Shown here: positions 55 through 19,402 of the stretch, piece after piece
How positions within the stretch are numbered: position 1 is the first letter of the stretch
Layout: every line of letters starts with the position of its first letter
From: Quisquiliibacterium transsilvanicum
Lineage (GTDB): Bacteria > Pseudomonadota > Gammaproteobacteria > Burkholderiales > Burkholderiaceae_E
DNA length: 64,000 nucleotides
Direction: 5' to 3'
Assembly: GCF_014202215.1 (NCBI RefSeq)
Contig: NZ_JACHGB010000004.1
Span: 1-64,000 of the forward strand
Program-made: the position numbers and the translations under genes
Notes under the pieces: generated by a model
The model's input: only the letters and a program-made list of their open reading frames with translations
Told to the model about the DNA's origin: nothing
Databases searched by the model: none

Positions 55-93
55 CTTAACCCAAAGAGCCTCCGCGAAAGCCGGGGCGGTTCA
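1..93. mobile_element. Right end of an IS3-family-like insertion sequence (partial)
   Basis: Read on the minus strand from base 93 inward, the sequence starts TGAACCGCCCCGG. From memory this resembles the terminal inverted repeat of IS51/IS407-group IS3 elements, which have TG...CA ends. It begins exactly where the coding similarity of the neighbouring truncated gene (56-244) stops. The matching left terminus and the target duplication are outside the window, so this rests on one end only. Confidence 0.5.
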
Positions 94-244
94 GGATCGC
101 CTCTGCGTTGTCCGGGGAGTGGCGCCCGGCGCGCAGCTCCACTGAGCCTGCAGGAGGCATGGCAATAGTCCGCCAACCAACTGCAGGGGCACTACCAGAC
201 AGCGACGACCAGGCCAGCAGTAGCTCCTCATTCGGACGGGCCAT
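56..244 (-). pseudogene. N-terminal fragment of a PD-(D/E)XK motif (DUF4420-like) nuclease gene, cut by an IS
   Basis: An ATG at 244 overlaps the last 17 bases of the Z1 gene and opens a 62-codon frame. The first 50 residues (for example NEELLLAWSSLSG, GWRTI, LRAGRHSPDN) recall the N-terminus of PD-(D/E)XK motif proteins encoded next to Z1 ATPases. That is recognition from memory, not a search. The last 12 residues are read from the presumed IS terminus and end at a TGA. The catalytic PD-(D/E)XK core is therefore absent here, and the rest of the gene would lie beyond the IS, left of the window. The overlap with the Z1 gene shows that it was the fourth cistron of the same translationally coupled operon. 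It could instead be a spurious short ORF, but its position and composition argue against that. Confidence 0.5.
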
Positions 245-3137
245 ATTCCTGCATCCAGTAGAGGAGGTTTACTTCGTACGCAACGCTGATCGGCTTGTCG
301 CTGGCAGGGAACGAAATGGCGAAAGCCATGATGGGCTTGCCCCATCCCGGAACGATCAGCTTCGAGGGATCCTTGACCTTGCCCACGTAGGGAGCGAGCG
401 GGTACAGCAGCAGGAGTCCGCAATCCACCTCACCCCCAAGCTTCGCCCGCGCCTCTCTCATGCCCTTACCGCTAGGCCTGCTGGGTAGGGTGACGCGACC
501 TCGCGCGGGATCGGGCTTCCAGGCTTCTTGCGTGAGCGCCAGCGCCCGGCGCCACGCGTCGTCGTTGAGGTCGATGCCTTCGTCCTTGGGGTCTGTAAGC
601 ACGCCGATGGCGAAGCTGGTCGGATCCCTCTTCTCCAGGTCCTCCGGGTCCTCGGTCTTGCGAGCAATGAACGATTCAGCCGGATCTACGCCGGGGAACG
701 TGTGTGAATCGCCAACGCCATCGCCGCCGCCAAGCAATGCGACGCTCCACTGGGTCAACTGGCCAGTCCCGACCATCTTGGAGATGAACTCAGCAAGCAC
801 CGCGGCCTTGGCGCTGGTCGCGTTCGGATGGGTCGCATAGGCTCCGAGGAACACGAGCACCTGTGACACATCGACGTTCTTCCAGAGGCGAGCGTTCGGC
901 CACGAATCGGCCGCGCCATCGCGGGTGTATCTTAGCGACTCCACCCACGGCTTGCCGAGCGAAGCGAGCAGGGCATCCGCCGCGTCCAAATTCTGCCTTT
1001 GAACATTGGAGTCACGATGGAAGAGAATGGTTTGTGGACGGGAGCCGCTGTAGGTAAGGGATAGAGTCTGCGCGTTGCGCATCTTCAGCGGCGAGGTGAC
1101 AGTGAGCACCTCATGCGACTTCACCTTGAGACCGTACTGTTCCGGCGTCAAATTGGCGTTGGCCATGAAGTCAAACTCGTCGCGCAGCTCTTCTGACGCG
1201 TCAGCGATATGGCCGAACCACTTCACGAGATCGGGTGAGGTATAGAGACGGCAGAGATCAAGATAGCCGGGACGATACCCAAACCATCGTCCCATCTGCA
1301 TCAGCGTGTCATACATCTTCGTGGTCCGCACGAAGTAGCTTACGCACAAACCTTCGAGGGTAAGACCTCGAGCGAGCTTGTCACCGCCAATGGCAATAAC
1401 CCTGAGGGCCGCACCTGGCGTCGCGTAGTCAAGTGCGTCCTTCGCAGTACCGTTGATAGAGCGAACGTCGATGTCGTCGAGGACATCCGGCAGCGTGGCA
1501 AGCACCCTTTCCCAACCAGGCATTTCCGGGGGGCGATCCTCCGCAGGCGAGAGCTCGGCAACTTGGTCGCGGATCGGGATGAAATCATCCTCCCAAAGCT
1601 TGCGCAATTGGCTAAGCAGCTCGCCCGCCTCGTTGCCGCGAGTTATCTTCTGGCGCATTCGGCGCACCGCCTCCGCGACCTGCTCGCGTACATGCTTCTG
1701 AACGTCAACGTATCGGGTGACGTGGATCAACATGGAGCAGTGCTCGTTCCCTTGCCCTCGCAACTCACGTGCGACGCATGCCAAGACGAAGGAGCCGATG
1801 GCTTCTTGCAGCGAAGGCGGAATGACTTCTCGCCCCTTGTAGGTTGGAACGTGAGTCTTTCTGTGCTTGGGCGGCATCCAGCCTGAAACCGTCCCCGGAT
1901 CGTAGTGGTCCAAGACATCTCGAGAGAGGGGGAGTGCTCCTTGGCGCCCATCTTCCGTCATCCTCCCGAACATTCGCGCAGGGCCAACGTAGTTCGACGG
2001 CGCGGCGAGGTTGATGATGAAGGAACGTGGGAACAGATCCGGGCCCTCCTTGGCCGTGGCGCCTTTGTGGTGGATGAAAATGTTGGCGAACGGCGTGGCC
2101 GTGTAGCCCACGTAGGCCTTGCGAGTAAAGGCGTGTAGCACTTGCCGGATGAGGCTGTTAATGGTCTTGGGTTGATGCTCTTCATCCGGCGTCCCGTCGT
2201 CCTTGAACATCTGCTCGCCCGTATCCACGGAAGCGTTGTCCGCCTCGTCGTCGATCATCAGCAGCGGCAGCTTCGTCACGAGCTTCCGGGCGCCGCTCGT
2301 ATCCGAGGTATCGGCAACGCGCGTTTGTATCCAGTTCAGCAGGGCAGTTAGGACCGTCTTCTGCTTCTTGACGACGAACAGCCAAGGGCGTTCCTCTGGT
2401 GAGATGCCATGGAAGTGCCTCGCGATGGACTTGTTGAAATCACCATTCTCCGCGCGCGTGGTCGCGGAGTTGGTCTTCAAGTCGTCCCCGAATTCAGCGA
2501 CGCCGATCGGTATGCCGGGGTCGCGATCGTTCGTCGTCTCGTAGCCCAGAAAGCTCTCCTCAAGCCTCATTTGGGTCTGCGAGCGAAGATTGTTGTGCAT
2601 GCCCGCCAGTACGATGATGATCTTGTAGCCCGCATCGGCGGCCTTACATATCAACCCGGAATAATTGCTGGTCTTGCCGGACTGCACATGGCCGACGACA
2701 AGGCCGCGGCGATCCCAAGGGTCGGTTCGCTGCGGGTCCTCGAGAAGGCTGAGGATGTCATCGGTTGCTTCGTTGAGGCCTTCGACTACGGTGTCGGAGA
2801 GTTTGGATTCCAGGAAGTCCCGGTAGCGTCGCCAGTAATGCCAGTCGCGCTTTCGGGCGGCCGTGAGCCAATCGCGGTGCCCACTGTCATCCTTGAGCGT
2901 GGTGGCTTTTCCAATCCAATGGCTGAAGCGCTGAATCAGAATGGCAACTGCCGTTTCCTGGTCCACGGGGAGCGGCGAGCTCCCTGCGAAAGCAGCCGCG
3001 GCCATCTGCACCTTCTCTACGATAAAGGCGGGAGTAACCTTGGATTTGTCCTTCTCGGCCTTAACTAGTCGCTGCGCGGTGGCAATGACGTTTTCAAGCA
3101 GCTCCGCTTGCGCGGCCACATCTTCTACTGCGGTCAA
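228..3137 (-). CDS. Z1-domain helicase-like ATPase of a predicted defence operon
   Basis: A 969-residue P-loop ATPase of the Z1 family (Pfam Z1 type). Walker A GHVQSGKT is near residue 148, Walker B LLMIDDEAD near 292, a motif-III-like YVGYTATPFAN near 340, and the arginine-finger segment QMGRWFGYR near 611. These are superfamily-2-like helicase features, so ATP-driven movement on DNA is inferred. The Z1 family is known from predicted restriction or phage-defence loci with GHKL ATPases and PD-(D/E)XK nucleases (described by Iyer, Abhiman and Aravind in work on MutL homologues in restriction systems). The start codon is TTG: its T-T-G shares bases with the TGA of the upstream ATPase gene, and a strong GGGAGGA lies 5-6 bases upstream. 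It is the third cistron, translated from the preceding gene by coupling. Expressed alone, its DNA target is unknown. Confidence 0.88.
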   Translation of the reverse strand: MTAVEDVAAQAELLENVIATAQRLVKAEKDKSKVTPAFIVEKVQMAAAAFAGSSPLPVDQETAVAILIQRFSHWIGKATTLKDDSGHRDWLTAARKRDWHYWRRYRDFLESKLSDTVVEGLNEATDDILSLLEDPQRTDPWDRRGLVVGHVQSGKTSNYSGLICKAADAGYKIIIVLAGMHNNLRSQTQMRLEESFLGYETTNDRDPGIPIGVAEFGDDLKTNSATTRAENGDFNKSIARHFHGISPEERPWLFVVKKQKTVLTALLNWIQTRVADTSDTSGARKLVTKLPLLMIDDEADNASVDTGEQMFKDDGTPDEEHQPKTINSLIRQVLHAFTRKAYVGYTATPFANIFIHHKGATAKEGPDLFPRSFIINLAAPSNYVGPARMFGRMTEDGRQGALPLSRDVLDHYDPGTVSGWMPPKHRKTHVPTYKGREVIPPSLQEAIGSFVLACVARELRGQGNEHCSMLIHVTRYVDVQKHVREQVAEAVRRMRQKITRGNEAGELLSQLRKLWEDDFIPIRDQVAELSPAEDRPPEMPGWERVLATLPDVLDDIDVRSINGTAKDALDYATPGAALRVIAIGGDKLARGLTLEGLCVSYFVRTTKMYDTLMQMGRWFGYRPGYLDLCRLYTSPDLVKWFGHIADASEELRDEFDFMANANLTPEQYGLKVKSHEVLTVTSPLKMRNAQTLSLTYSGSRPQTILFHRDSNVQRQNLDAADALLASLGKPWVESLRYTRDGAADSWPNARLWKNVDVSQVLVFLGAYATHPNATSAKAAVLAEFISKMVGTGQLTQWSVALLGGGDGVGDSHTFPGVDPAESFIARKTEDPEDLEKRDPTSFAIGVLTDPKDEGIDLNDDAWRRALALTQEAWKPDPARGRVTLPSRPSGKGMREARAKLGGEVDCGLLLLYPLAPYVGKVKDPSKLIVPGWGKPIMAFAISFPASDKPISVAYEVNLLYWMQEYGPSE

Positions 3138-4627
3138 TCGTTCCTCCCCAGTCTTTCGACGAGCTGCGGGTATTTCTGGAATGGTTCAGTCCTGAGCATC
3201 GACCTGCGGGCCTCCTCGACGCTCAGGCCCTTTCGTGCGATGAGATCCATGAACAACACGTTTGCAACCTCGATCACGGCCTCGTTGGGCTCGCCCTCGA
3301 AGCCAGTTCGCGGCGTCTCCTTGTTCTCGGCGGTATCAAGCCAGACGCGCTGCACCGGGACTGTTTCTTCAATCACCCGGAGCATCGACTTCACGAGCGG
3401 CTTCAGCGAGCCAGCGCTTTCCATGACGGCTGCAACCGACGGGTGCGCTTCGTCGATCCGATATCGCAAGCCAGACTTGAGCCTCTCCACGCGCCATGCC
3501 TGTTCGATAGGCTCGTTGCCAGCAGCTGGAGCCGGCGACCCACGATAGGCGAATACGCGCCGGGCGCGGTCCCGAGTGTTCTCGGCCAGCAGGGTGAGCC
3601 AGGGGCGCAGCGACACCGGAGGCCGAGCCACCGACTTACGGACATCGATCTTCCAGTCGGCATCGGCCGTATTCGGGATATCCAGGCGGATGCGGGCTAG
3701 GCGATGTGCCTCTTCCCGGTTCCAGGCGCGGGCGCTGCCCAGCCCGAGCCATCCACCCGCGACCAATAGGCGCTCATTCCGGTAGACGTAGAAGCCCTGC
3801 TGCGCGGTCCATCCGGCAGGCCCGGCGTTCTCCTCGAACTCGGAATTGGTCAACCTGTCGCGGTGAGGCAAGACGTGACACTGCACCGAGACGATTCCGT
3901 AAGCGGTCTGGTGATTGGTGACCGGTGATGTCCAAGGCTTCGCCGGATGCCCTGTCATGAAGGGGTCCCAAGCAGAGACAGGCCGACCATTTAGCAGCAA
4001 CTTGAGCCGGGCACGGGGTCCTTGAATCAACCGGTGGAAGACCATCGCCAAGTGGGACTCGACGTTGTCGATTAGATCGTTGAAGTTGTCTGCGGTGTAG
4101 CCGTCGGTGACGATGCGGTCGAGCGCCTCCCAGAGGACGAGAGTCCCAGAATGCTCGCCGTCAAGGCTGGCGAGATGCACCTCAGAGCCCGCGGCAGGGC
4201 CTTCAAACAGTAGCCATTCGTCGTCGGGAAGCGCAGCGAGTTCGTCGAGGTCCCATCGCAGGCAGCTCTTGGCGCCATGTTTGACGCTGGCGACCGTCAG
4301 CCGACGGCATTGAGAGAACGAGGCCGTCTTCAAACCCATACCGAAGCGGCCAAGATCATGCGCATCACGCTCAGCCAACGGGTTTTTGTCGCCCATTCGC
4401 ATCGCACTTTCGAGCTCCGCGTCGCTCATTCCTACGCCGTCATCGAGGATCGCGATGCGGGTGCCAGCCCCATCCCATCTGGCTTCAATGCGTACTTCGC
4501 CTGCTCCCGCGGAGATACTGTTGTCCACGATATCCGCAACGGCCGCGGCAGTCGAATAGCCCAAGCCCCGCAGCGCTTCGAGCATTGCCATGGGGCGCGG
4601 AGGTGCCTTTCTGGTCCTTTGCTTCAT
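3134..4627 (-). CDS. GHKL (MutL/MORC-like) ATPase of the Z1 operon
   Basis: A 497-residue ATPase with a GHKL fold. The N-box ADIVDNSISAGA is at residues 31-42, the G1 box DDGVGM at 62-67 and the G2 lid GRFGMGLKTASFS at 93-105. Such ATPases dimerise on ATP binding and clamp DNA or partner proteins. In Z1-type loci they are thought to couple recognition to the nuclease. No nuclease or zinc motif is evident in the C-terminal half. A longer frame starts at 4651, but the ATG at 4627 is preferred: it overlaps the sigma gene stop as ATGA (4624-4627) and has GGGGGAAGG about 9 bases upstream. The stop overlaps the TTG start of the Z1 gene. Gene order and overlaps imply one complex made in fixed ratio. 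Confidence 0.85.
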   Translation of the reverse strand: MKQRTRKAPPRPMAMLEALRGLGYSTAAAVADIVDNSISAGAGEVRIEARWDGAGTRIAILDDGVGMSDAELESAMRMGDKNPLAERDAHDLGRFGMGLKTASFSQCRRLTVASVKHGAKSCLRWDLDELAALPDDEWLLFEGPAAGSEVHLASLDGEHSGTLVLWEALDRIVTDGYTADNFNDLIDNVESHLAMVFHRLIQGPRARLKLLLNGRPVSAWDPFMTGHPAKPWTSPVTNHQTAYGIVSVQCHVLPHRDRLTNSEFEENAGPAGWTAQQGFYVYRNERLLVAGGWLGLGSARAWNREEAHRLARIRLDIPNTADADWKIDVRKSVARPPVSLRPWLTLLAENTRDRARRVFAYRGSPAPAAGNEPIEQAWRVERLKSGLRYRIDEAHPSVAAVMESAGSLKPLVKSMLRVIEETVPVQRVWLDTAENKETPRTGFEGEPNEAVIEVANVLFMDLIARKGLSVEEARRSMLRTEPFQKYPQLVERLGRND

Positions 4628-7215
4628 TTCCAGTAGCCTTCCCCCGGCCAAGGGGCGAAGCCGAAGTCAATCAGTCTACGTACCAAGTGGCGGTACCGAG
4701 AGTCCTCTATATTTCGCACTCGCACCCAGATCCGGCCTGAGTGCCCACCCCTTTCGTCGTCAACGGCAACGCCAAGTGCGGCGGCATGGGCCAGCAATTG
4801 GTCAAGGCGCGAAGACCGGGCGCGGGCCGCAACGTTGGAAACCGCTGATGCGGACACAGGCAGGCCCTGCGGTCGAGATTTTTCGGACCTGTCGTGAACT
4901 TCGATGCGCTCGCGTTCGCCCCGCTCCTCTCCACAGCGCCCACCCCTCTGCCGACCATTCCTTGCCGTCTGAATAAGAGGCTTAGTGCGTTCGCGAGTAT
5001 TCGTCGAGACACGGACCCTCAGCTTCTTGAGGGCGCTTGCTTCAATTTGACGGATGCGTTCGCGGGTGAATGCAAAACGTTGTCCGATCTCGTCCAGTGT
5101 CAAGGAATCCCGCACCCCAAAACCATAGCGAAGGCGAAGAATCATCCGATCTCTAGGCGACAATACCGACAAGAGATCGTCGAGCAATCGATGGAGCTCG
5201 GCACTGGTAACTATCTCGACTGGATCCGGAATTCTGAAGATATCCAGCGCTTCTATGGTAGCAAGTTCGTCGGTTGACAGAGCCTCAATTGAGAGTATCT
5301 CGGACGTAACGCGCCGGAGGGCGGCCACCTTCTCGGCAGGTATGCCGACACCCGCTGCAAGCTCTTCGGGAGACGGTGCGCGACCGAATCGGGACTCGAA
5401 CACCTCAGTCTCTCGGCTTAGGCGCTGGTATTTCTCGTAAACGTGTACAGGAATGCGGATTGTCCTGCCCTTGTCTGCGATATGACGACCGATTTGCTGC
5501 CGAATCCACCATGTTGCATAAGTAGTGAACCTGAAACCGCGCCGCCAATCGAAGCGTTCAACCGCTTTGAGCAGCCCGATATTCCCCGCCTGGATCAAGT
5601 CATCGAGCGGCTCTCCGCTGTAGAGATATTTCTTGGCGAGATGAAACACCAGCCTTAGGTTCGCGGCCGCCATGCGATCGCGTTCCTGCCGATACGAGGA
5701 CATCGCCTGAACGTATCGTGCGCGGGCCGAGGAAGAATCTGGGCACTCAATGTCGCTCAACTCCAGCATGAAGCGGCGGCTGAGCCGGAGAGCCGCGAGC
5801 GCTTCGCGCACTGCTCTCCATGCCGGAGTGTGCAGCTCGGAGTCGACAGACGAGGCGCCGAGCTGGCGAAGCGCATCCGTAAAACCGCTATCGACTAGAT
5901 GAAACTGCGCATCAGAACGGGGTACAAGATCGCCCGCCAGGGGCTCTTCTTCCTCTCCAGCAGCTAACGCTTCTGCACGGGGATCCTCTGAGATGACGAG
6001 TTCGGCTGACCTACTCCCGAGCGACATCCAAGCTAACGGGCGAACCCCTGCTTTGATTTCTGCCCCCACAGCCAGCGTCCATGCAACGCCTCCTGGCCAG
6101 GCAGCCAACGCATCGAGGGCCGCCTGCAAAGCCATCTCCATGGCTTGACTAAGAGCTACCTCGTCTAGCGCCGACATGAGCCGAAAGCGCCGGAGCTCCC
6201 GCAGATAGATCTGCAGCGGCTCATTGCGGGAAGACTCCGCGCTTTCGATGGCGGCGAGCGCCTCATCAACGGCATCCTCTTCCTCGGGTGTCTCCTCGGG
6301 ATTCAGGATGACCTCGAAGCTGTCGGCGGCGGCGAGGTACTCCAGTCGCTCGTCCACGTCGGCCCCCAGATCGTTGATCACTCTACGTAGCCTCGCCACC
6401 GCTTCGAGGTTGAGCGATTGGTCGTCGTAGCTAGTCGACAACTCCGCAAGAGCCCGGCTAGGAACGCTCCCCTCGCGGATCGCACGGAGAAGCAGAGGGC
6501 GCAGCCGCGCGCGGGCCTCAACATTTCCGGCGCGCGCGAACGGCGAGGCCTGTATTGGCAAATCGACGTCGATGTCGCTCCATTCCGCTGAGGAATCCAC
6601 CGTCTCATGCTTGGAGATGGCAACTTGGATCGCAGTAGAGTCACGTACGATCGACAGGTCAGTCTCTGGTGGGCTGCTCTCCTCCTCCGCCTCCCAACCA
6701 GACAAGTCGAACTCGGATGGACCATCCAGATCAACAGTTACGTCTGCTGCGTGCAAGACGGGAGGCTTACCCAGGGGGATCCCCGCCGCCGGGAGCGTTC
6801 CAAGCGCCAAGTGCGCTGGCCGAGCATCGGCTGGACGTACCTCGACGCCAGGTCGGCTGCCTGGCTCGATGGTGAAGGCTTTCGATCCGCCACCAGAAAT
6901 CGGAGGCGATGCCTGCACCATGCTGAGAATTTCAGCTGTCTCGTGCGCCCCTGCGGCGACCGCAATCTCGTGGGCAGTCTGGCCGGAGGGGGCGAGCAGA
7001 CGCGGATCAGCCCCCGCAGCCAGGAGCAGGCTGCAGATGTCGGACCTGTTCCGGGCCGCGGACAGCATTAGTGGCGTCATGCCGTTGACGTCGCGTGCGT
7101 TGAGGTCGTCGCCTCTCGCGATGTGGAGTCGCACGGCGCTTTCAACACCTGCCACAACGGCCATGCGAAGCAATTGGCTAAGAGACCAAGAGTCAGCGAC
7201 ACCAGACGCGGTCAC
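4624..7215 (-). CDS. Ankyrin-repeat / sigma-70 fusion protein, first gene of the Z1 operon
   Basis: 863 residues. About three ankyrin repeats fill residues 14-100 (for example NARDVNGMTPLMLSAARN). An acidic, Ser/Pro-rich linker follows to about 325. Sigma-70 region 1.2 (LQIYLRELRRF) is near 333. Region 2 runs from about 508 to 595, including DDLIQAGNIGLLKAV and TTYATWWIRQQIGR. Region 3 is near 600-645 and region 4 (LTLDEIG...TRERIRQIEASALKKLR) near 680-734. The last 129 residues have no counterpart in RpoD; they end GFAPWPGEGYWK. The DNA-contact residues are nearly those of RpoD, so it should bind core RNA polymerase and housekeeping-like promoters, whereas the ankyrin part suggests protein sensing. 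The start is GTG with no obvious ribosome-binding site, so the N-terminus is uncertain. A sigma factor heading a GHKL/Z1 operon is unusual, and its role as regulator or sensor is inference. Confidence 0.85.
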   Translation of the reverse strand: MTASGVADSWSLSQLLRMAVVAGVESAVRLHIARGDDLNARDVNGMTPLMLSAARNRSDICSLLLAAGADPRLLAPSGQTAHEIAVAAGAHETAEILSMVQASPPISGGGSKAFTIEPGSRPGVEVRPADARPAHLALGTLPAAGIPLGKPPVLHAADVTVDLDGPSEFDLSGWEAEEESSPPETDLSIVRDSTAIQVAISKHETVDSSAEWSDIDVDLPIQASPFARAGNVEARARLRPLLLRAIREGSVPSRALAELSTSYDDQSLNLEAVARLRRVINDLGADVDERLEYLAAADSFEVILNPEETPEEEDAVDEALAAIESAESSRNEPLQIYLRELRRFRLMSALDEVALSQAMEMALQAALDALAAWPGGVAWTLAVGAEIKAGVRPLAWMSLGSRSAELVISEDPRAEALAAGEEEEPLAGDLVPRSDAQFHLVDSGFTDALRQLGASSVDSELHTPAWRAVREALAALRLSRRFMLELSDIECPDSSSARARYVQAMSSYRQERDRMAAANLRLVFHLAKKYLYSGEPLDDLIQAGNIGLLKAVERFDWRRGFRFTTYATWWIRQQIGRHIADKGRTIRIPVHVYEKYQRLSRETEVFESRFGRAPSPEELAAGVGIPAEKVAALRRVTSEILSIEALSTDELATIEALDIFRIPDPVEIVTSAELHRLLDDLLSVLSPRDRMILRLRYGFGVRDSLTLDEIGQRFAFTRERIRQIEASALKKLRVRVSTNTRERTKPLIQTARNGRQRGGRCGEERGERERIEVHDRSEKSRPQGLPVSASAVSNVAARARSSRLDQLLAHAAALGVAVDDERGGHSGRIWVRVRNIEDSRYRHLVRRLIDFGFAPWPGEGYWK

Positions 7216-8522: not shown

Positions 8523-9413
8523 ATGTCCGACCTCTACGAGGCCGTCACGGCCCGCATCGTCGCCGCGCTCGAAGCCGGCACCCCACCGTGGATCCGCCCC
8601 TGGTCGACCGACCCGGCCGATGCCGCCCCCTGCAACCTCGCCACCCGGCGCCCCTACCGGGGCGTCAACGTCCTGCTGCTCAACCTGCAGGCTGCCGCCT
8701 GCGGCTATGAGCGCAACCGCTGGCTCACGTTCCGCGGCGCCCAGGCGCTGGGGGCGCGCGTGCGCAGGGGCGAAACGGGCACCCCGATCGTCTTCTTCAA
8801 GCTGAAGGAGGTTCGGGGCGAATCCGAGGTCTCCGAGGCCGGAGGCGACGTGCGGGTCGTCCCGCTGCTGCGCACCTTCACCGTCTTCAACGCGGCGCAG
8901 ATCGAGGGCCTGCCGCCCGAGCTGCTGCCCCAGGGGCCTTCGGCGCCCGCCTGGAGCCCGCTGGAGGCCGCAGAGGACGTCCTGTGGGCCTCCGGAGCGG
9001 AGATCCAGCACGGCGGCTCCAAGGCGTTCTACGCGCCCAGCCAGGATCGCATCCAGCTGCCGGCGCGCAGCGCCTTTCCCGAGGCCCGCGACTACTACGC
9101 GGTCGCGCTCCACGAGCTGACCCACTGGACGGGGCATCCGAGCCGCTGCAACCGGCCGCTGATGCCCCGCCAGACGATCGAGGCCTATGCCTTCGAGGAG
9201 CTGGTCGCCGAGATGGGCGCAGCCTTCCTGTGCGCCCACGTCGGCATTCCCGGCCGGCTCGAGCACGCCAGCTACATCGAGAGCTGGCTGAGGGCGATGC
9301 GCAGCGACAAGCGGCTGATCTTCACGGCTGCCAGCCGTGCGCAGGCCGCAGCCGACTACGTACTCGGGCTGGCGTCCCCCCAGGCGGCCGAAGCCGCGGA
9401 GGTGGCCGCATGA
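8523..9413 (+). CDS. ArdC-like antirestriction protein / zincin-type peptidase
   Basis: 296 residues with the two-part architecture of plasmid and ICE ArdC proteins. An N-terminal single-stranded-DNA-binding domain (residues 1 to about 130) carries GTPPWIRPW and [11 protein letters not shown] zincin-like domain follows, with the metal motif HELTH at residues 197-201 and a downstream acidic ligand in [10 protein letters not shown]. Known ArdC proteins protect incoming single-stranded DNA from restriction; whether this one does is inferred. ATG 8523 has GAGGAG upstream. The stop overlaps the RadC-like start (ATGA). Its presence supports a conjugative or phage origin of the surrounding module. 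Confidence 0.85.
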
Positions 9414-9853
9414 ACGCCACCCGCCATCCCACCGTTACCCGTGCGCTGCGCCTGCTCGCCAGCGAAATGGCCGAGGGCGACGTCCTGTCCTCGCCCGCCG
9501 CCGTGCGCGACTACCTGCGCCTGTCGCTCGGGGATCGTCCGCACGAGGTGTTCGCGGTCTTGTTTCTCGACGCCCAGAACCGCGTGCTGGAGAGCGTCGA
9601 GCTCTTTCGCGGCACGCTCACGCAAACCTCGGTGTACCCGCGCGAGGTGGTGGTCGAGGCGCTGCGGCGCAATGCGGCGGCGGTGATCCTCTGCCACAAC
9701 CACCCCAGCGGCGTGGCCGAACCCTCAACGGCCGACCGGCTGCTGACCCAGGCGCTCATCCGGGCGCTGGAGCTGGTCGACGTGCGGGTGCTGGATCACT
9801 TCATCGTCACCCGCCGCGAGACCGTGAGCCTCGCCGAGAAGGGCTACCTCTAG
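9410..9853 (+). CDS. RadC-like JAB/MPN-domain protein
   Basis: 147 residues consisting essentially of the JAB domain of RadC-family proteins. The metal-binding signature HNHPSG is near residue 98, the Asp ligand follows in STADRLL, and an upstream Glu lies in [11 protein letters not shown]. The N-terminal helix-hairpin-helix part of chromosomal RadC is missing, as is common in island-borne copies. Despite the RadC name, a direct DNA-repair role for this family is not established. It is translationally coupled to the ArdC-like gene by the ATGA overlap at 9410-9413, with CGGAGG upstream. Confidence 0.85.
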
Positions 9854-9892
9854 CCCGCTGTCCCCTGCCGGCCTTGCGCCGGCATCCCCACG

Positions 9893-9928
9893 CGCCCCGG
9901 TCGAGCCCCGTGCTCACCGGGGCGTTTT
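9893..9928 (+). terminator. Putative intrinsic terminator after the RadC-like gene
   Basis: The arms CGCCCCGGT and ACCGGGGCG pair perfectly around a 14-base loop and are followed by TTTTCG. The short T-run makes termination plausible but perhaps incomplete, allowing readthrough into the DUF1071 gene that starts 24 bases later. Confidence 0.5.
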
Positions 9929-9951
9929 CGCTTCCCCCACTGGAGAGCACC

Positions 9952-10590
9952 ATGTCCGCCAACGACAACTACTTCCTGCGTCTCAGCCGCATCAACGTCA
10001 ACGACCACGTCGAGAAGAAGGGCCAGTTCACCTACCTGAGCTGGCCCTTCGCCGTCGCCCAGCTGCGCCAGGCCGACCCCACGGCCACCTGGGAGGTGCG
10101 CCGCTTCGAGGGCCTGCCCTTCCTGCGCACCGAGACCGGCTACTACGTCGAGGTCGCCGTCAGCGTCCAGGGCGTCACCCTGAGCCAGATCCACCCGGTG
10201 CTCGACGGCAAGAACCGGCCGATCTTCGAGCCGACCTCGTTCGACATCAACGCCTCGATCCAGCGGGCGCTGGTCAAGGCGATCGCGCTGCACGGCCTGG
10301 GCCTGTACATCTACGCCGGCGAGGATCTCCCCGAGGCCGACGCGGGGGAGGCACCGGCAAGACCGGCCGAACCCCAGCCGGCGCGGCCCAAGGCGCCGGT
10401 GTCGAGCCTGCCCTCTGCAGGCCGGGCCAGCCCCGCGCAGCTGCGCTACATCGGCCGGCTGCTCGACGAGACCGGCAGCGACCTGGAGCGGCTGCTGGAG
10501 TTCTTCGGGGTCGACGAGCTCGACGAGCTGACCTCCCAGGCCGCGAGCCGGGCGATCCGAAGCCTCGAGTCCAAGCGGAGGGCTGCATGA
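9952..10590 (+). CDS. DUF1071 (Sak-type) single-strand annealing protein
   Basis: 212 residues. The first ~130 match the DUF1071 family of phage single-strand annealing proteins (FTYLSWPFAVAQLRQADP, FDINASIQRALVKAIALHGLGL). A proline/alanine-rich linker follows, then a C-terminal helical piece (SPAQLRYIGRLLDE). Such proteins anneal complementary single strands during phage or ICE recombination. It is directly followed, with an ATGA overlap, by a YqaJ-type exonuclease, reproducing the classic annealase plus exonuclease pair. ATG 9952 is preceded by TGGAGAG. Confidence 0.8.
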   Translation: MSANDNYFLRLSRINVNDHVEKKGQFTYLSWPFAVAQLRQADPTATWEVRRFEGLPFLRTETGYYVEVAVSVQGVTLSQIHPVLDGKNRPIFEPTSFDINASIQRALVKAIALHGLGLYIYAGEDLPEADAGEAPARPAEPQPARPKAPVSSLPSAGRASPAQLRYIGRLLDETGSDLERLLEFFGVDELDELTSQAASRAIRSLESKRRAA

Positions 10591-11450
10591 TGGCCACCAT
10601 CGTCAAGCTCCTGCAGGGCAGCCCCGAGTGGCACGCCCACCGGCTGGCCCATCGCAACGCGTCGGAGACGCCCGCCGTCCTCGGCTTGTCGCCGTACACC
10701 ACGCCACTGCAGCTGTGGCAGCAGCGCACGGGGCGCGTCACCGTCGAGACGACCGCCGCGATGGCCCACGGCACGGCCACCGAGCCGGAGGCACGGGCCA
10801 TGTACGAGACCCTCACGGGCAACGTCATGCAGCCGCTGGTGCTCGTCGACGGGGAGTACTCCGCGAGCCTGGACGGCATCACGCTCGACGGCGATGTCAT
10901 CGTCGAGATCAAGTGCCCGAAGAGCAAGACCTCGTCACTGCTGCAGGAGGCTCGCGCCGGCCGGGTGCCAGTGCATGTCTACTGGCAGATGCAGCACCAG
11001 TTGCTGGTGAGCGGTGCGCGCCTCGCCCACCTCTACGTCTTCGACGGCAAGACCGGCATCCTGATCGAGCAGGCGGCCGAGCCCGATTGCTGGGAGACGA
11101 TCCGCCAGGGCTGGGAGGCCTTCATGGCGCATGTGCGTGATGACACCCCGCCGCCGCTGTCCGAGCGAGACGTGGTCTTGCGGACTGATCCGGAGTGGGA
11201 GACGGCCGCGCGGGAGTACATGGCGCTGAAGAGCGCCGCGGAGGCCGTGGCCGGTGAACTGGAGGCGGCGAAGCAGCGGCTGGTGGCGCTGACGACGCAC
11301 ACCTCCGAGCAGGGCTTCGGCGTGACGGTCAGCCGCTACCTGAAGACCGGGTCGGTGGACTACAAGAAGGTGCCCGAGTTGGCCGGAGTCGACCTGGAGC
11401 GGTATCGGGGCGCTGCGCGGCAGGAGGTACGGGTGACGGTGATGAAGTAG
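10587..11450 (+). CDS. YqaJ-type (lambda-exonuclease-like) viral recombinase
   Basis: 287 residues of the YqaJ/lambda Exo nuclease fold: LGLSPYTTPLQLW near the N-terminus, the acidic residue in GTATEPEARAMYE, and the core D...EIK (VEIKCPK, E107 and K109). It should resect double-stranded DNA to give single strands for the adjacent annealing protein. A coiled segment near residues 210-235 follows the nuclease domain. Two ATGs (10587 and 10590) overlap the upstream stop; GGAGGG upstream favours the first. This is the last gene before the island boundary. Confidence 0.85.
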   Translation: MMATIVKLLQGSPEWHAHRLAHRNASETPAVLGLSPYTTPLQLWQQRTGRVTVETTAAMAHGTATEPEARAMYETLTGNVMQPLVLVDGEYSASLDGITLDGDVIVEIKCPKSKTSSLLQEARAGRVPVHVYWQMQHQLLVSGARLAHLYVFDGKTGILIEQAAEPDCWETIRQGWEAFMAHVRDDTPPPLSERDVVLRTDPEWETAAREYMALKSAAEAVAGELEAAKQRLVALTTHTSEQGFGVTVSRYLKTGSVDYKKVPELAGVDLERYRGAARQEVRVTVMK

Positions 11451-15781: not shown

Positions 15782-16126
15782 TCAATTGCGCTGGCCGCGC
15801 GGCGCGGCCAGCTCTCCGTCACGATCACGTTCCCGATCGCGCTGGCGGTACCCTTGCTTCATCTTCACCACCCGGAGGGTTTCCGGGTCGATCTTGGCCT
15901 TGAAGGCACGACCCTGGGCGTCCGTGCCGCGAAGCTCGTAGCAGCCGTCGTCGATCTTCAGCCGCTCGATCTGCCAGGATTGCCGGGCCGCCATCTCGCG
16001 CACCGCCTCGCGCGACTGCCAGCGCTCCACCGGCGCCTCGCAATCGTTCCCGGCAAACGTCGGCAGCGCGAACAGCCCCAGTGACAGAGCCAGCAGACTG
16101 CGGCGCAGAGAGGACCTGTGACTCAT
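15782..16126 (-). CDS. PepSY-domain periplasmic protein
   Basis: 114 residues with a signal peptide (SSLRRSLLALSLGLFALPTFA) followed by a single PepSY domain (REAVREMAARQSWQIERLKIDDGCYEL...GRAFKAKIDPETLRVVKM). A highly charged Arg/Asp tail closes it. PepSY domains are small periplasmic modules tied to redox or protease partners. ATG 16126 has AAGGAG five bases upstream; the longer frame from 16213 lacks one. It is the first gene of the four-gene electron-transfer operon. Confidence 0.82.
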   Translation of the reverse strand: MSHRSSLRRSLLALSLGLFALPTFAGNDCEAPVERWQSREAVREMAARQSWQIERLKIDDGCYELRGTDAQGRAFKAKIDPETLRVVKMKQGYRQRDRERDRDGELAAPRGQRN

Positions 16127-16324
16127 CTGGGGCTCCTTTCCAGCGGGCTTGCGCATGACAGAGGATTCGAGGTGCAGGCGCGACGGGCTCGAGCGGCATT
16201 GTGAGGAATCCATCCTGAACGAATGCTGAACGAGGCATTCGTTCGCCGCCCGTTGGCAGCGACTGCAGCCTTGCTCGTGCCGTGGGGGCTTCCTGGCTGC
16301 ACGCGCAGGCTGGCTGCCTGACTG

Positions 16325-16675
16325 CTACGGGCCGGATCCAGACCGCGCCAGCAGCCACATCACTGTCCCATACCCCGCAACCGTTGCGAGGCAGGCAAGC
16401 AGCAGGCTCGGCCAGAAGGCCCATCCCGCACGCAGCAACACCGGCAGCACGATGAACAGCAGCAGCGAGGGGATCACCAGCCAGAGGATGTCGTTGGCCA
16501 GCGAAGCGATGCGGCTCGGCGGCTCGCCATCCAACTGCATCCAGACGAAGGCCAGGATGGAGGTGAGCGGAAGCGATGCGAGCGCAGCCGCCCAGAGGCT
16601 GGAGCGCTTGGCGATCTCCGCGACGGCCACGATGACGACGGCGGAGAGCGCGACCTTGAGGGCGTACTGGAACAT
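16325..16675 (-). CDS. DUF3147 family membrane protein
   Basis: 116 residues with four hydrophobic spans (VALSAVVIVAVAEIA, LWAAALASLPLTSILAFVWM, LWLVIPSLLLFIVLPVLL and LLLACLATVAGYGTVMWLL), matching the small DUF3147 inner-membrane family in length and pattern. Function is unknown. It reads in the same direction as the PepSY operon but is separated by about 200 bases, so shared transcription is uncertain. Confidence 0.75.
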   Translation of the reverse strand: MFQYALKVALSAVVIVAVAEIAKRSSLWAAALASLPLTSILAFVWMQLDGEPPSRIASLANDILWLVIPSLLLFIVLPVLLRAGWAFWPSLLLACLATVAGYGTVMWLLARSGSGP

Positions 16676-16729
16676 CGGCCAGCTCAGTGGTCGGCTTCAA
16701 GTCCGGACGCCGAGGCGCCGCTGATCAAT

Positions 16730-16750
16730 CCCGCCCGGCTTCCGGGCGGG
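16730..16750 (-). terminator. Hairpin downstream of the dodecin gene
   Basis: CCCGCCCGG and CCGGGCGGG form a perfect nine-pair stem with a three-base loop, 21 bases after the dodecin stop. On the minus strand it is followed by ATTGATC rather than a T-run, so it is a moderate terminator candidate. Confidence 0.45.
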
Positions 16751-16771
16751 TCCCCGAGGAGGCAGCCCCAG

Positions 16772-16978
16772 TCACTCGAGGGTGAAGCCCACCTTGAGCG
16801 TCACCTGCCAGTGCGAAACCTTGCCGCTCGCGACGTTGCCGCGGGTTTCGATGACGGAGAACCAGTGGATGTTCCGGATCGTTTCGTGCGCCTTCGCCAG
16901 CGCGTTGCGCACGGCGTCGTCGCTGCTGACCGACGAAGACCCCGTGAGTTCGATCGACTTGTAGGTGTGATCCGACAT
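16772..16978 (-). CDS. Dodecin flavoprotein
   Basis: 68 residues matching dodecin across its length: [36 protein letters not shown] with the flavin-stacking Trp, and [17 protein letters not shown]. Dodecins form hollow dodecamers that store and buffer flavins in the cytoplasm. ATG 16978 has AGGAGG nine bases upstream; a 13-residue extension from 17017 is rejected because it contains no family sequence. Its location next to flavin-dependent electron-transfer genes may be meaningful. Confidence 0.9.
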
Positions 16979-17305
16979 GGCATGGCCTCCTGTGTCTTGC
17001 CCTCCCTCATCGGACACCCGGGCGCGGCGTCTGTCAATGGCAGGGGCATGGCTGCGAGCGATTCGCCCTCATGGCCATTCGCTCGACTCGTCAGGACTCG
17101 CGCCACCTGAATCGACAGTCTCGCCGGGCTCGTCCTATGAGCCCCGCTCTCAATAGCATCGCGTCACGCCGAACGTTTGTCTCGCTGCATGGTCACCAGG
17201 GAATCACCGCTCGTTCGGTCCTTGGGAGCGACTCTCCGGCGCCGATGCGGGTTGGCCGAACCGTCATCCTGGATTGCAGGCCTCATCAAAGGAGAAAGAA
17301 GAAAA
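16979..17305. other. Divergent intergenic region between dodecin and a lipoprotein gene
   Basis: About 327 bases that must contain promoters for the leftward dodecin and rightward lipoprotein genes. I see no strong consensus promoter, repeat or RNA gene in it. ORFs through it have no family resemblance or ribosome-binding sites. Confidence 0.35.
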
Positions 17306-17866
17306 ATGGGTAGAAGCCTTGCTGTTTCGATGGCGGTCGCCGCCTCTGTGCTGGCCGCTGGCTGTGCGACGCCGGCACGTGTCGACCAGATGATCTCCGA
17401 ACCGGGCATCGCGAAGCGGATCGCCGCCCCGGCTGTGCTGAAGGAAAACGTGGCCCTGAGGGACGTGACGGGTGGCCGCGAAACCAACCCGATGTGGGTG
17501 AGCAGCGTCGGCAGTTCCGAGTTCGAGGGAGCCCTTGCAGGATCCCTGCGAGCCGCGGGCATGTACTCCGAGAACCGCCAGGCCGGGCGCTACTTCCTCA
17601 CCGTGCATCTCGAGAAGCTCGACCAGCCGCTGGTCGGCTTCAACCTGACCGTTACGGCGACGGTCAACTACACGCTCACCGAGAGGGCAAGCGGAAAGGA
17701 TGTGTTCGCCAGAACGATAGCCACGCCGTACACGGCGAAGGCGGGCGACGCGTTCCTGGCCGTCGAGCGACTGAAGCTCGCGAACGAGGGCGCCATCAGG
17801 ACGAACATCGCCCGCCTCATCGATGAGCTCATGGCATTGCGAATCGACGGAGTTGCCCTTCGTTAG
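17306..17866 (+). CDS. Outer-membrane-type lipoprotein of unknown function
   Basis: 186 residues with a lipoprotein signal (MGRSLAVSMAVAASVLAAGC, lipobox LAAGC). The mature part has short beta-type segments (YFLTVHLEKL, FNLTVTATVNYTL) and a conserved-looking C-terminal helix; I do not recognise a named family. ATG 17306 follows AAAGGAGA at a slightly long spacing of about 10; the longer frame from 17177 would bury the signal peptide. It is followed 50 bases later by a second lipoprotein gene. Confidence 0.72.
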   Translation: MGRSLAVSMAVAASVLAAGCATPARVDQMISEPGIAKRIAAPAVLKENVALRDVTGGRETNPMWVSSVGSSEFEGALAGSLRAAGMYSENRQAGRYFLTVHLEKLDQPLVGFNLTVTATVNYTLTERASGKDVFARTIATPYTAKAGDAFLAVERLKLANEGAIRTNIARLIDELMALRIDGVALR

Positions 17867-17916
17867 CCGCCCCTGGCTGCCGGTTCGTCTCATTTCAATC
17901 AGTTCTGGAGCTTCAG

Positions 17917-18378
17917 ATGTTTCTCAAACGTCCCGTTTGCCTCGCCCTCGCAATCTCGATACTGTCCGCTGGCTGCGCCACGGCGTCCAAAGACATCTCG
18001 AGCGCATATGTCTCGCCCATGCAGTATCAGTCCTACGATTGTGAGCAGCTCACAGCCGAGGTGCAGCGCGTCCATGGACGTGTCACGCAACTTGGGGGCC
18101 GGCTCGATGAGGCCGCTAGCAACGACAAGGCGATCATGGGGGTCGGGCTGGTCCTGTTCTGGCCCGCCCTTTTCGCGCTCGGCGGTACCAAGCAGCAGGA
18201 GGCTGAGTACGGCCGTCTGAAGGGCGAGTACGACGCCCTGCATCAGGCCTCGATCCAGAAGAAGTGCAAGGGCGCCGTGGCCAACGCCCCCGCCCCCGCC
18301 CCGGCGTCGACCGACGTCGTCCGCGCCGAGGCGCAGGCCGCTCCAACGATGACGCCGGTGGTGGCGCCCTCGCAATGA
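17917..18378 (+). CDS. Small lipoprotein with one membrane-like segment
   Basis: 153 residues: a lipoprotein signal (LALAISILSAGC), a segment rich in charged residues (YDCEQLTAEVQRVHGRVTQL), a hydrophobic stretch IMGVGLVLFWPALFAL, a short coiled piece (EYGRLKGEYDALHQASI) and an Ala/Pro tail. Similar small lipoproteins are common in proteobacteria and uncharacterised. TGGAG lies eight bases before ATG 17917. It probably shares a transcript with the preceding lipoprotein. Confidence 0.7.
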   Translation: MFLKRPVCLALAISILSAGCATASKDISSAYVSPMQYQSYDCEQLTAEVQRVHGRVTQLGGRLDEAASNDKAIMGVGLVLFWPALFALGGTKQQEAEYGRLKGEYDALHQASIQKKCKGAVANAPAPAPASTDVVRAEAQAAPTMTPVVAPSQ

Positions 18379-18540
18379 AGGGGCGGGGGCCTGTTCAACC
18401 GGTTCTGGCGGCGCAGCGCATCCGCGCCTCGAATGGCGGGGCGGCCGGGGAGGGCTGACCCCGCGACCCGCGACCCGCGAGCGCGGCCAGCCCGGTCCAT
18501 AAGCGGCCGTCCCCGCCAACGGGCGGATCCACAGCCCCGG

Positions 18541-18546
18541 TAAAAT
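18541..18546 (+). promoter_or_regulatory. -10-like element TAAAATC upstream of the SDR gene
   Basis: TAAAATCC at 18541 lies 79 bases before the SDR start. The same GGTAAAATC context recurs before other genes in the window (25742, 32342, 33435, 35930, 62010). No good -35 hexamer precedes it. Confidence 0.4.
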
Positions 18547-18619
18547 CCCCCACGCCGCCCGGCCCAGGCCGGGCGATCCGTTTCCAATCACCATCGCCGA
18601 CTCGGCAGGAGCACACCAA

Positions 18620-19402
18620 ATGAAATTCGACGCAACCACCAGCGCAGTCGTCACCGGCGGCGCCTCGGGCCTGGGCCAGGCTTCCGCGGAGGCCCTGGCC
18701 GCCGCCGGCGCCAAGGTCGCGATCTTCGACATCAACGAGGAAAAAGGCACCGCGGTGGCCAAGGCCATCGGCGGCATCTTCTGCAAGGTCGACATCAACA
18801 GCGAGCAGAGCGTGGTCGACGGCTACGCCAAGGCGCGCGCCGCCCACGGCCAGGAGCGCATCCTGGTGCATTGCGCGATGACCTCGCGCCGCGGCAAGAC
18901 CCTGGCCTTCGACAAGGCGTCGAACAAGCTCAAGCGCCTGTCCACCGAGGACTACGAGGCGGGCGTGCAGGGCGTGCTGGTGGCCAGCTACCGCCTTGCG
19001 GCGCACGCGGCCGAGGGCATGGCCACGCTGGAGCCGCTCGAGGACGGCGAGCGCGGCGTCATCATCCTCACCGCGTCGGTGGCGGCCCAGGACGGCCAGA
19101 TCGGCCAGGTGATCTACGGTTCGGCCAAGGCCGGCGTCAATGGCCTGGTGCTGCCGATGGCGCGCGACCTGTCCGACATCGGCATCCGCGTGAACTCGAT
19201 CATGCCGGGCATCTTCGCCACGCCGCTGATGCTGGGCGCCACGCCCAAGGTGCTCGAGAGCCTGAGCGCCTCGGTGCCCTTCCCGAAGCGCCTGGGCAAG
19301 CCGGAGGAGTTCGGCAGCCTGGCGCTCGAGATCGCGCGCAACTCGTACTTCAACGGCCAGTGCGTGCGTCTGGACGGTGCCATCCGCATGACGCCGCGCT
19401 GA
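18620..19402 (+). CDS. SDR-family 3-hydroxyacyl-CoA dehydrogenase-like oxidoreductase
   Basis: 260 residues of the classical short-chain dehydrogenase fold: cofactor motif TGGASGLGQ near residue 13, FDINEEKG acidic NAD-preferring loop, catalytic Ser in ILTASVAAQ and YGSAK as the Tyr-x-x-x-Lys pair. The sequence around MPGIFATPLM and the overall length resemble type II 3-hydroxyacyl-CoA dehydrogenases, suggesting a beta-oxidation role; the substrate is inferred. AGGAG lies eight bases before ATG 18620. A strong terminator follows. Confidence 0.82.
   Translation: MKFDATTSAVVTGGASGLGQASAEALAAAGAKVAIFDINEEKGTAVAKAIGGIFCKVDINSEQSVVDGYAKARAAHGQERILVHCAMTSRRGKTLAFDKASNKLKRLSTEDYEAGVQGVLVASYRLAAHAAEGMATLEPLEDGERGVIILTASVAAQDGQIGQVIYGSAKAGVNGLVLPMARDLSDIGIRVNSIMPGIFATPLMLGATPKVLESLSASVPFPKRLGKPEEFGSLALEIARNSYFNGQCVRLDGAIRMTPR

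Follow-up and report, generated by a model that had tools for sequence, protein, structure and literature searches.

Why should an anti-phage operon encode a sigma factor? The question is raised by the first 64,000 nucleotides of contig C4 (NZ_JACHGB010000004.1) in the draft genome of Quisquiliibacterium transsilvanicum (4.26 Mb, 15 contigs), a 64 kb stretch that we call the window. Four overlapping open reading frames (ORFs) with predicted domains lie on its minus strand, as ORF and Pfam checks confirm, and by sequence comparison the cluster belongs to Mza (mzaABCDE), a known anti-phage defence system reportedly described by Gao et al. in 2020, of which it holds mzaA, mzaB, mzaC and the first part of mzaD. 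The first of these genes encodes MzaA, in which ankyrin repeats precede a sigma-70-type factor. What is new here is that, among relatives of this protein, the sigma half has been replaced repeatedly by the housekeeping sigma-70 of the host, RpoD.

The mzaA gene (positions 4624-7215, minus strand, 863 amino acids) matches the PADLOC MzaA model at 1.4e-72 and Pfam sigma regions 1.2, 2, 3 and 4 as well as Ank_2, and its product was aligned with 32 homologues and host RpoD. Its stop codon is overlapped by the ATG of mzaB (3134-4627, minus strand), which encodes a GHKL (MutL/MORC-type) ATPase (PADLOC MzaB 2.5e-199; HATPase_c_3 1.7e-32), followed by mzaC (228-3137, minus strand; PADLOC MzaC 1.3e-299), whose product carries the motif DTLMQMGRWFG. 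Counting the window together with contig C3 of the same genome, all five PADLOC Mza models (PDLC02203-02207) are matched in gene order. A preliminary description of the window had proposed a candidate defence system of four consecutive minus-strand genes with overlapping starts and stops; the ORFs, overlaps and domains bear out the arrangement, and the PADLOC matches support the proposed assignment to defence. However, the MzaA model PDLC02203 scores the host housekeeping RpoD (L096) at 1.9e-79, as well as a true MzaA, and was rejected as sufficient proof. The assignment of MzaA therefore rests on its ankyrin N-terminal half and its position, and MzaA calls outside an operon context may be RpoD.

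How firmly does the sigma gene belong to the system? We surveyed 87 loci (handles beginning with L), comprising 80 genome loci from an MzaC alignment (the best 80 of at least 573 confirmed), the window and six plasmid loci, using profiles (sigma, ankyrin, B, C, D, E, Vsr and Dcm) iterated from the genes of the window and contig C3. A sigma ORF (E <1e-30) adjoins mzaB in 33 of the 87, at a spacing of -187 to +40 bases by longest ORF, and the ankyrin part was seen in 30 of these 33 (L027 is cut off; L034 and L035 gave no match). In an MzaC tree built by a quick method with support from the Shimodaira-Hasegawa-like approximate likelihood ratio test, the 33 loci and three that are cut upstream (L031, L042, L044) form one side of a branch with support 100. 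Of the 51 remaining loci, three (L047, L073 and L081) are cut, and in none of the 48 whose upstream side can be seen was MzaA found. The proposal that the sigma factor is a structural or regulatory member of the system is thus supported for one clade, where all 33 informative members carry it. Joint searching of the Mza genes across genomes, as had been suggested, finds mzaA to be a conserved neighbour of mzaB within this clade, and finds a methyltransferase family-wide.

In five of the 36 MzaA proteins (L015, L021, L024, L030 and the one in genome G227), the MzaA N-terminal half is followed by RpoD as the sigma half. The fifth (G227, locus L139) came from genome searches in which 5 of 369 genomes of the class and 5 of 399 of the order, the source genome included, passed MzaC cut-offs of 1e-100 and 1e-150, while none of the 14 control genomes did so in either search. 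Judged by its coordinates, G482 is the genome of L023; from the short contig piece of G565, mzaA was not recovered. In a tree of regions 2-4 with host RpoD, built without the RpoD of L020 and L028, the proteins of L015, L021, L024 and L030 group with RpoD (98/93). The MzaC clade to which L015 and L021 belong has 13 members, and yet 11 of these make up a separate sigma clade (100/99). By segment identity, the ankyrin parts of these four chimeras are 43-66% identical to the nearest MzaA and no more than 25% to RpoD. Starting at region 1.2, and including the long non-conserved region, the closest sequence is instead RpoD. The contrast is slight for L030, at 28 versus 23% in the segment resembling region 1.1 and 47 versus 46% in region 1.2. 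Assembly error was ruled out as a source of chimeras, because in L021, L024 and L030 the sigma half is 38-48% different from host RpoD, and in L021, L024, L030 and G227 alike the mzaA and rpoD matches lie on different contigs. The hosts of L017 and L029 carry a second full-length RpoD-like gene (L128 and L129, a sister pair at 100/100); both were rejected as further chimeras, since their translated N-terminal parts do not look like ankyrin repeats by eye.

Is the captured factor the host's own? The sister test covers four chimeras (L021, L024, L030 and G227), the RpoD of the L015 host being outside the comparison. When the five sigma halves were placed in one tree with 29 RpoD, the own-host RpoD was sister of the sigma half for G227 (100/99), L024 (100/99), L021 (99/96) and L030 (91/82). 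Alignment scores agree, the own-host RpoD being the best of the 29 for L021 (1603 versus 1432), L024 (1504 versus 1308), G227 (1375 versus 1088) and L030 (1290 versus 1257). The ranking was extended to the 28 of 36 MzaA with a complete host RpoD, omitting L009, L010, L013, L015, L020, L028, L039 and L075 together with two RpoD paralogues; own-host RpoD ranks first for 6 of the 28 (p 0.0006 against shuffled hosts), for L043 and L034 by small margins, and these two were not counted as chimeras. A single common origin of the five sigma halves is rejected by the approximately unbiased (AU) test (p-AU 1.4e-70, log-likelihood 139 lower), for a group that was set apart by tree and score after the first tree, G227 later, and was not named beforehand.

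The N-terminal halves of the five chimeras fall in five different places of their own tree, in which many forks are weak, L021 and L015 with the set of the window and L030 with L028, L029, L010, L013 and L032. From these placements, the N-terminal half appears broadly to stay with the operon while RpoD of the host lineage is swapped in for the sigma half; the sequences point to at least four replacements, and probably five. At L015 the N-terminal half lies at the base of the window's set, but MzaC lies beside that of the window, so the whole mzaA gene may be foreign there.

What would an operon gain from a copy of a factor that its host already makes? If MzaA were only a promoter-specific sigma factor for mza, the host's own sigma-70 within it would be redundant with RpoD, and its retention despite this redundancy suggests that the joined N-terminal half is what matters. 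Because free host RpoD is present anyway, captured RpoD would be useful only through its joining to that half. We therefore propose, from sequence comparison and at about even chances, that MzaA is a host-matched sigma-70 tethered to the Mza machinery, where it would act as an adapter to polymerase and promoters, or as bait. A fuller version, which we offer tentatively and hold to be less likely than not, is that the sigma half is a renewable copy of the host housekeeping sigma factor, replaced by the RpoD of each new host as operons move and then diverging fast. The system would then plug into or guard the RNA polymerase of the host, MzaA either luring anti-sigma proteins of phages as a bait or bringing MzaB-E to sigma-70 promoters as an adapter.

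The pattern of divergence bears on the choice between adapter and bait. Measured against own-host RpoD (L015 against the RpoD of L023), the five captured copies are 89-94% identical in regions 2.3-2.4, 81-97% in 4.2 and 76-92% in 2.1-2.2, and 44-74% identical in region 1.2, 34-68% in 3.0-3.2, 47-72% in 4.1 and 44-57% in the non-conserved region. The same host RpoD compared with all other RpoD gave medians of 82-88% in region 1.2, 71.5-78% in region 3, 69-72% in 4.1 and 24-36.5% in the non-conserved region. The end branches of the captured copies measure 1.02-2.39, versus 0.024-0.14 for host RpoD. Judged by the identities, the side that reads -10 and -35 DNA is kept, and the parts that contact polymerase and regulators drift. 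The nearly intact promoter-reading helices of the five copies argue against a sigma factor with private promoter specificity, and the retention of the DNA-reading side leads us to favour the adapter form slightly over the bait form.

Host sigma-70 is a phage target. Could MzaA be simply an integrated decoy, such that the proteins with which phages bind host sigma-70, for anti-sigma action or polymerase takeover, would attach to the MzaA copy too and thereby trigger MzaB-E? The exchanged part is the very factor that phages target, it pairs with the host's own RpoD in all four testable chimeras, and the captured copies then change fast, as their long end branches attest. T4 AsiA, however, binds sigma region 4, and region 4.1, a part of it, is among the less conserved segments of the captured copies; this point is softened by the variation of region 4.1 between the RpoD of different hosts. 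Furthermore, the most constant part is the DNA-reading side, and the MzaA of the window cannot be traced to its own host RpoD. We regard a pure bait as unlikely.

How much of a sigma factor is the MzaA of the window itself? Ankyrin repeats occupy residues 1-105 (6901-7215, minus strand, as for all parts of the protein; Ank_2 at residues 18-98, 1e-09). Residues 229-310 (6286-6531), aligned in 19 MzaA, resemble RpoD region 1.1, and phmmer aligns residues 229-382 to the N-terminal part of the RpoD chain 7xya_F (domain independent E-value 1.7e-07). Pfam places region 1.2 (Sigma70_r1_2) at 6133-6219, and it is near this point, ahead of region 1.2, that MzaA sequence gives way to RpoD in the four chimeric relatives tested segment by segment. 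Region 2, for core binding and -10 reading, lies at 5461-5667 (Sigma70_r2 2.4e-21), region 3 at 5284-5436 (Sigma70_r3 1.5e-07) and region 4, for -35 reading, at 5017-5175 (Sigma70_r4 1.4e-18). The recognition helix in region 4.2 is as in RpoD, and this helix is almost constant across the MzaA family, with single substitutions in a few members (e.g., L038 and L039). Alignment and a structure model place a C-terminal extension at residues 741-863 (4627-4995), ending in a small alpha/beta domain of ~60 residues that 10 of 33 aligned MzaA possess. In an AlphaFold model from 24 sequences, the ankyrin part is predicted with confidence (predicted local distance difference test, pLDDT, 93-97 in blocks 11-100), a low-confidence linker follows it, and the sigma regions are mostly confident; the best Foldseek matches of the model are chains of Escherichia coli polymerase complexes, which we read as sigma-70 (4e-16). 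Among the matches to the N-terminal half listed in 369 genomes, only G000 and G227, both Mza, reach the end of the model, and the others listed stop by position 180 of 315 and are ankyrin-repeat-like.

Several observations weigh against a host-matched, tethered sigma-70. In the tree of regions 2-4 only L015 falls inside RpoD, and L021, L024 and L030 branch just outside, so that it takes the longer stretch, starting at region 1.2, to pair the copies with their own hosts. The pairing of L030 is the weakest and drops to 80/71 in another tree, built without the partial RpoD L126 and L127. Own RpoD does not rank first for 22 of the 28 MzaA, including the window's, for which it ranks 22 of 29; the window's own sigma half is, on these scores, old, diverged and untraceable to its host. 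The structure model is of modest quality overall (pLDDT 72.1; predicted template modelling score 0.46). Region 2.4 of the window's MzaA departs from RpoD at several positions, including one T to G, which we take to be residue 440. A mostly alphaproteobacterial subclade (L033, L034, L035, L037, L038, L039) has another region 2 and an unrecognisable region 1.2, and the L039 protein lacks much of region 2. From these differences, full sigma-70 function may not be general. Lastly, gene conversion between rpoD and mzaA without selection could yield the same trees, and a promoter-like motif upstream of mzaA, TGTAGAATT, would fit a regulatory role instead.

Might MzaA then be a dedicated transcription factor, acting like a controller sigma to turn on its own mza operon, for instance at a late stage after arrival in a new cell or upon inactivation of host sigma-70 by a phage? 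Sigma regions are recognisable in most MzaA, and TGTAGAATT, which holds a 5-of-6 match to the -10 box, stands 53-161 bases before mzaA in 6 of the 33 loci (L016 at 5819, L017 at 5795, L019 at 5766, L022 at 5646, L040 at 5705 and L050 at 3038). It occurs only three other times in 1.75 Mb of loci on both strands, nine in total, and L075, as a seventh locus, carries a variant that differs from CTGTAGAATTTG by two mismatches. From its sequence and placement, TGTAGAATT may be the mza promoter in its clade. However, it was not found in the 400 bases upstream of mzaA in the window or in the RpoD-swapped L015 and L021, no dcm or vsr match has any of the nine occurrences in the 600 bases before it, and the loci that carry it are related, so the motif may persist by descent. 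The RpoD-derived sigma halves of 5 of the 36 MzaA would read RpoD promoters, leaving no private target. A dedicated factor is, in our estimate, rather unlikely, at perhaps one chance in four.

Must the swaps have been selected at all? Homology between mzaA and rpoD might let the sigma half be overwritten occasionally, any sigma-70 sufficing and host matching being incidental, and the likeness of regions 2 and 4 in the two proteins could allow such recombination. Yet the exchange takes in the long non-conserved region, whose length is reduced in the MzaA of the window, each of the four copies tested by segment has its junction ahead of region 1.2, and the products were kept with their DNA-reading helices retained. 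Chance recombination alone seems improbable to us.

The operon of the window is itself interrupted. The preliminary description had read the fourth gene as a truncated PD-(D/E)XK gene, and a short piece is indeed all that the window holds: mzaD retains only its first ~50 codons (94-244, minus strand; weak PADLOC MzaD match of 0.0084 for a 62-amino acid piece), with an ATCC repeat at both sides. A true short gene was rejected, for positions 1-93 are the end of an IS3/IS51-type insertion sequence (IS) inside mzaD, bases identical to which stand at one end of contigs C7 and C9, and the remainder of mzaD lies on contig C3 (L005 96-959; PADLOC MzaD 5.4e-53). The piece in the window covers MzaD profile positions 7-57, and a search of the genome matched positions 59-320 at C3:105-905, where the frame is open to the contig end; 0 of 14 control genomes matched in that search. 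Contig C3 starts with another IS end (L005 1-95), then ATCC, then the rest of mzaD, and the complement of ATCC stands at 94-97 on the C4 side, giving a 4-base target duplication around the element. The IS ends on the two contigs correspond to opposite ends of a single IS3-family element on the Cupriavidus campinensis plasmid NZ_CP043439.1 (window side 287452-287544, 81.7%; C3 side 286224-286317, 87.2%), with outer limits 1321 bases apart, and further matches are annotated as IS3-like element IS51 family. These IS ends, the profile continuity and the duplication indicate that mzaD was split by an insertion, of ~1.3 kb if it is like the plasmid element. The latter two lines of evidence also indicate that C3 and C4 adjoin, the element being spanned by no contig. 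The mza operon is probably impaired in this strain. In L040, from Ideonella benzenivorans, each of the five genes keeps a long open reading frame.

Beyond the insertion, contig C3 carries mzaE (L005 956-2737; AIPR 3.3e-93, PADLOC MzaE 2.4e-217), vsr (2647-3246; 8.6e-28) and, in opposite orientation, a C5 cytosine methyltransferase gene (3207-4805; PF00145 1.3e-45), with an IS66 transposase further on. The absence of a methyltransferase noted in the preliminary description holds for the window only, and a methyltransferase-free system was rejected. Every locus whose flanks extend at least 4 kb upstream and at least 7 kb downstream from mzaC has a C5 methyltransferase, 27 of 27 with MzaA and 38 of 38 without (65/65); for Vsr the figures are 25 of 27 and 30 of 38. 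Over all 87 loci the methyltransferase counts are 29 of 33 and 49 of 54; the window's copy is on C3, and the eight survey loci without one end less than 3 kb from mzaC on one side. Eight of the methyltransferase profile matches were weak (E >1e-30), and the seven checked, all but L047, were all PF00145. These full-flank counts and the MzaC tree place the methyltransferase with the whole Mza family and the sigma factor with one clade.

Genes for ArdC anti-restriction, RadC and YqaJ recombinase proteins lie beside mzaA (8523-11450 in the window) and, with the transposase genes nearby, place the locus in a mobile-element context. Contig C3 continues (L005 8476-13595) with an rve/Mu-type transposase, followed by a gene whose HEPN (RiboL-PSP type) match falls short of the Pfam cut-off; this gene adjoins a GmrSD-type restriction gene, and these are perhaps further defence genes.

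Six loci that lack mzaA have a different protein with a Pfam sigma-70 region 4 beside mzaE. In L041 it lies at 15920-19312 on the minus strand, facing mzaE; in L056 (15707-17272), L058 (15725-17308), L064 (15692-18475), L082 (15655-18663) and L084 (15657-18422) it is on the plus strand. These proteins have clearly different lengths and low mutual similarity between L041, L056/L058, L064/L084 and L082; the L082 protein also has an RNA polymerase alpha C-terminal domain, and L069 has a homologue without a Pfam match. Transcription-machinery parts have thus joined Mza operons more than once.

How does this locus compare with systems already described? Relative to the Mza system, the window copy differs in its IS-split mzaD, with vsr and the C5 methyltransferase adjoining, and its MzaA, perhaps as a further difference, carries ankyrin repeats and a C-terminal extension. 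With RpoD/SigA, MzaA shares regions 1.2 to 4 (220.8 bits to 7xya_F), and four relatives are RpoD-like from region 1.2 on; unlike RpoD/SigA, it has an ankyrin N-terminal half, diverged regions 3 and 4.1 and, in the window, a shorter stretch from region 1.2 to region 2. The MORC/paraMORC restriction-modification neighbourhoods of Iyer, Abhiman and Aravind (2008; PMC2292703), with their superfamily 2 (SF2) helicase motif DThhQXuRhFG, are alike in the GHKL ATPase, the SF2 motif itself (DTLMQMGRWFG in MzaC), a restriction endonuclease-fold protein, AIPR, cytosine methylase and Vsr. They are unlike in that the word sigma is absent from the main text of that source, and the sigma gene marks one Mza clade only. 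The window genes match the PADLOC Mza models directly, versus a published type II system at ~20% identity to MzaBCDE. Elsewhere (PMC10924106), mzaA is reported to mutate at high frequency and to diverge in PF04546; because the PADLOC MzaA model scores RpoD too, those data may include RpoD-like sequences, and we did not rely on them. A BREX paper (PMC12839542) describes a sigma-like helix-turn-helix in BrxL and, as far as its relevant passages go, mentions a decoy only for inactive nuclease domains.

The exchange of the sigma half for host RpoD is a clue to what MzaA does. If the sigma half is indeed renewed from each host, integrated decoys would have in MzaA a bacterial equivalent whose bait is a core transcription factor.

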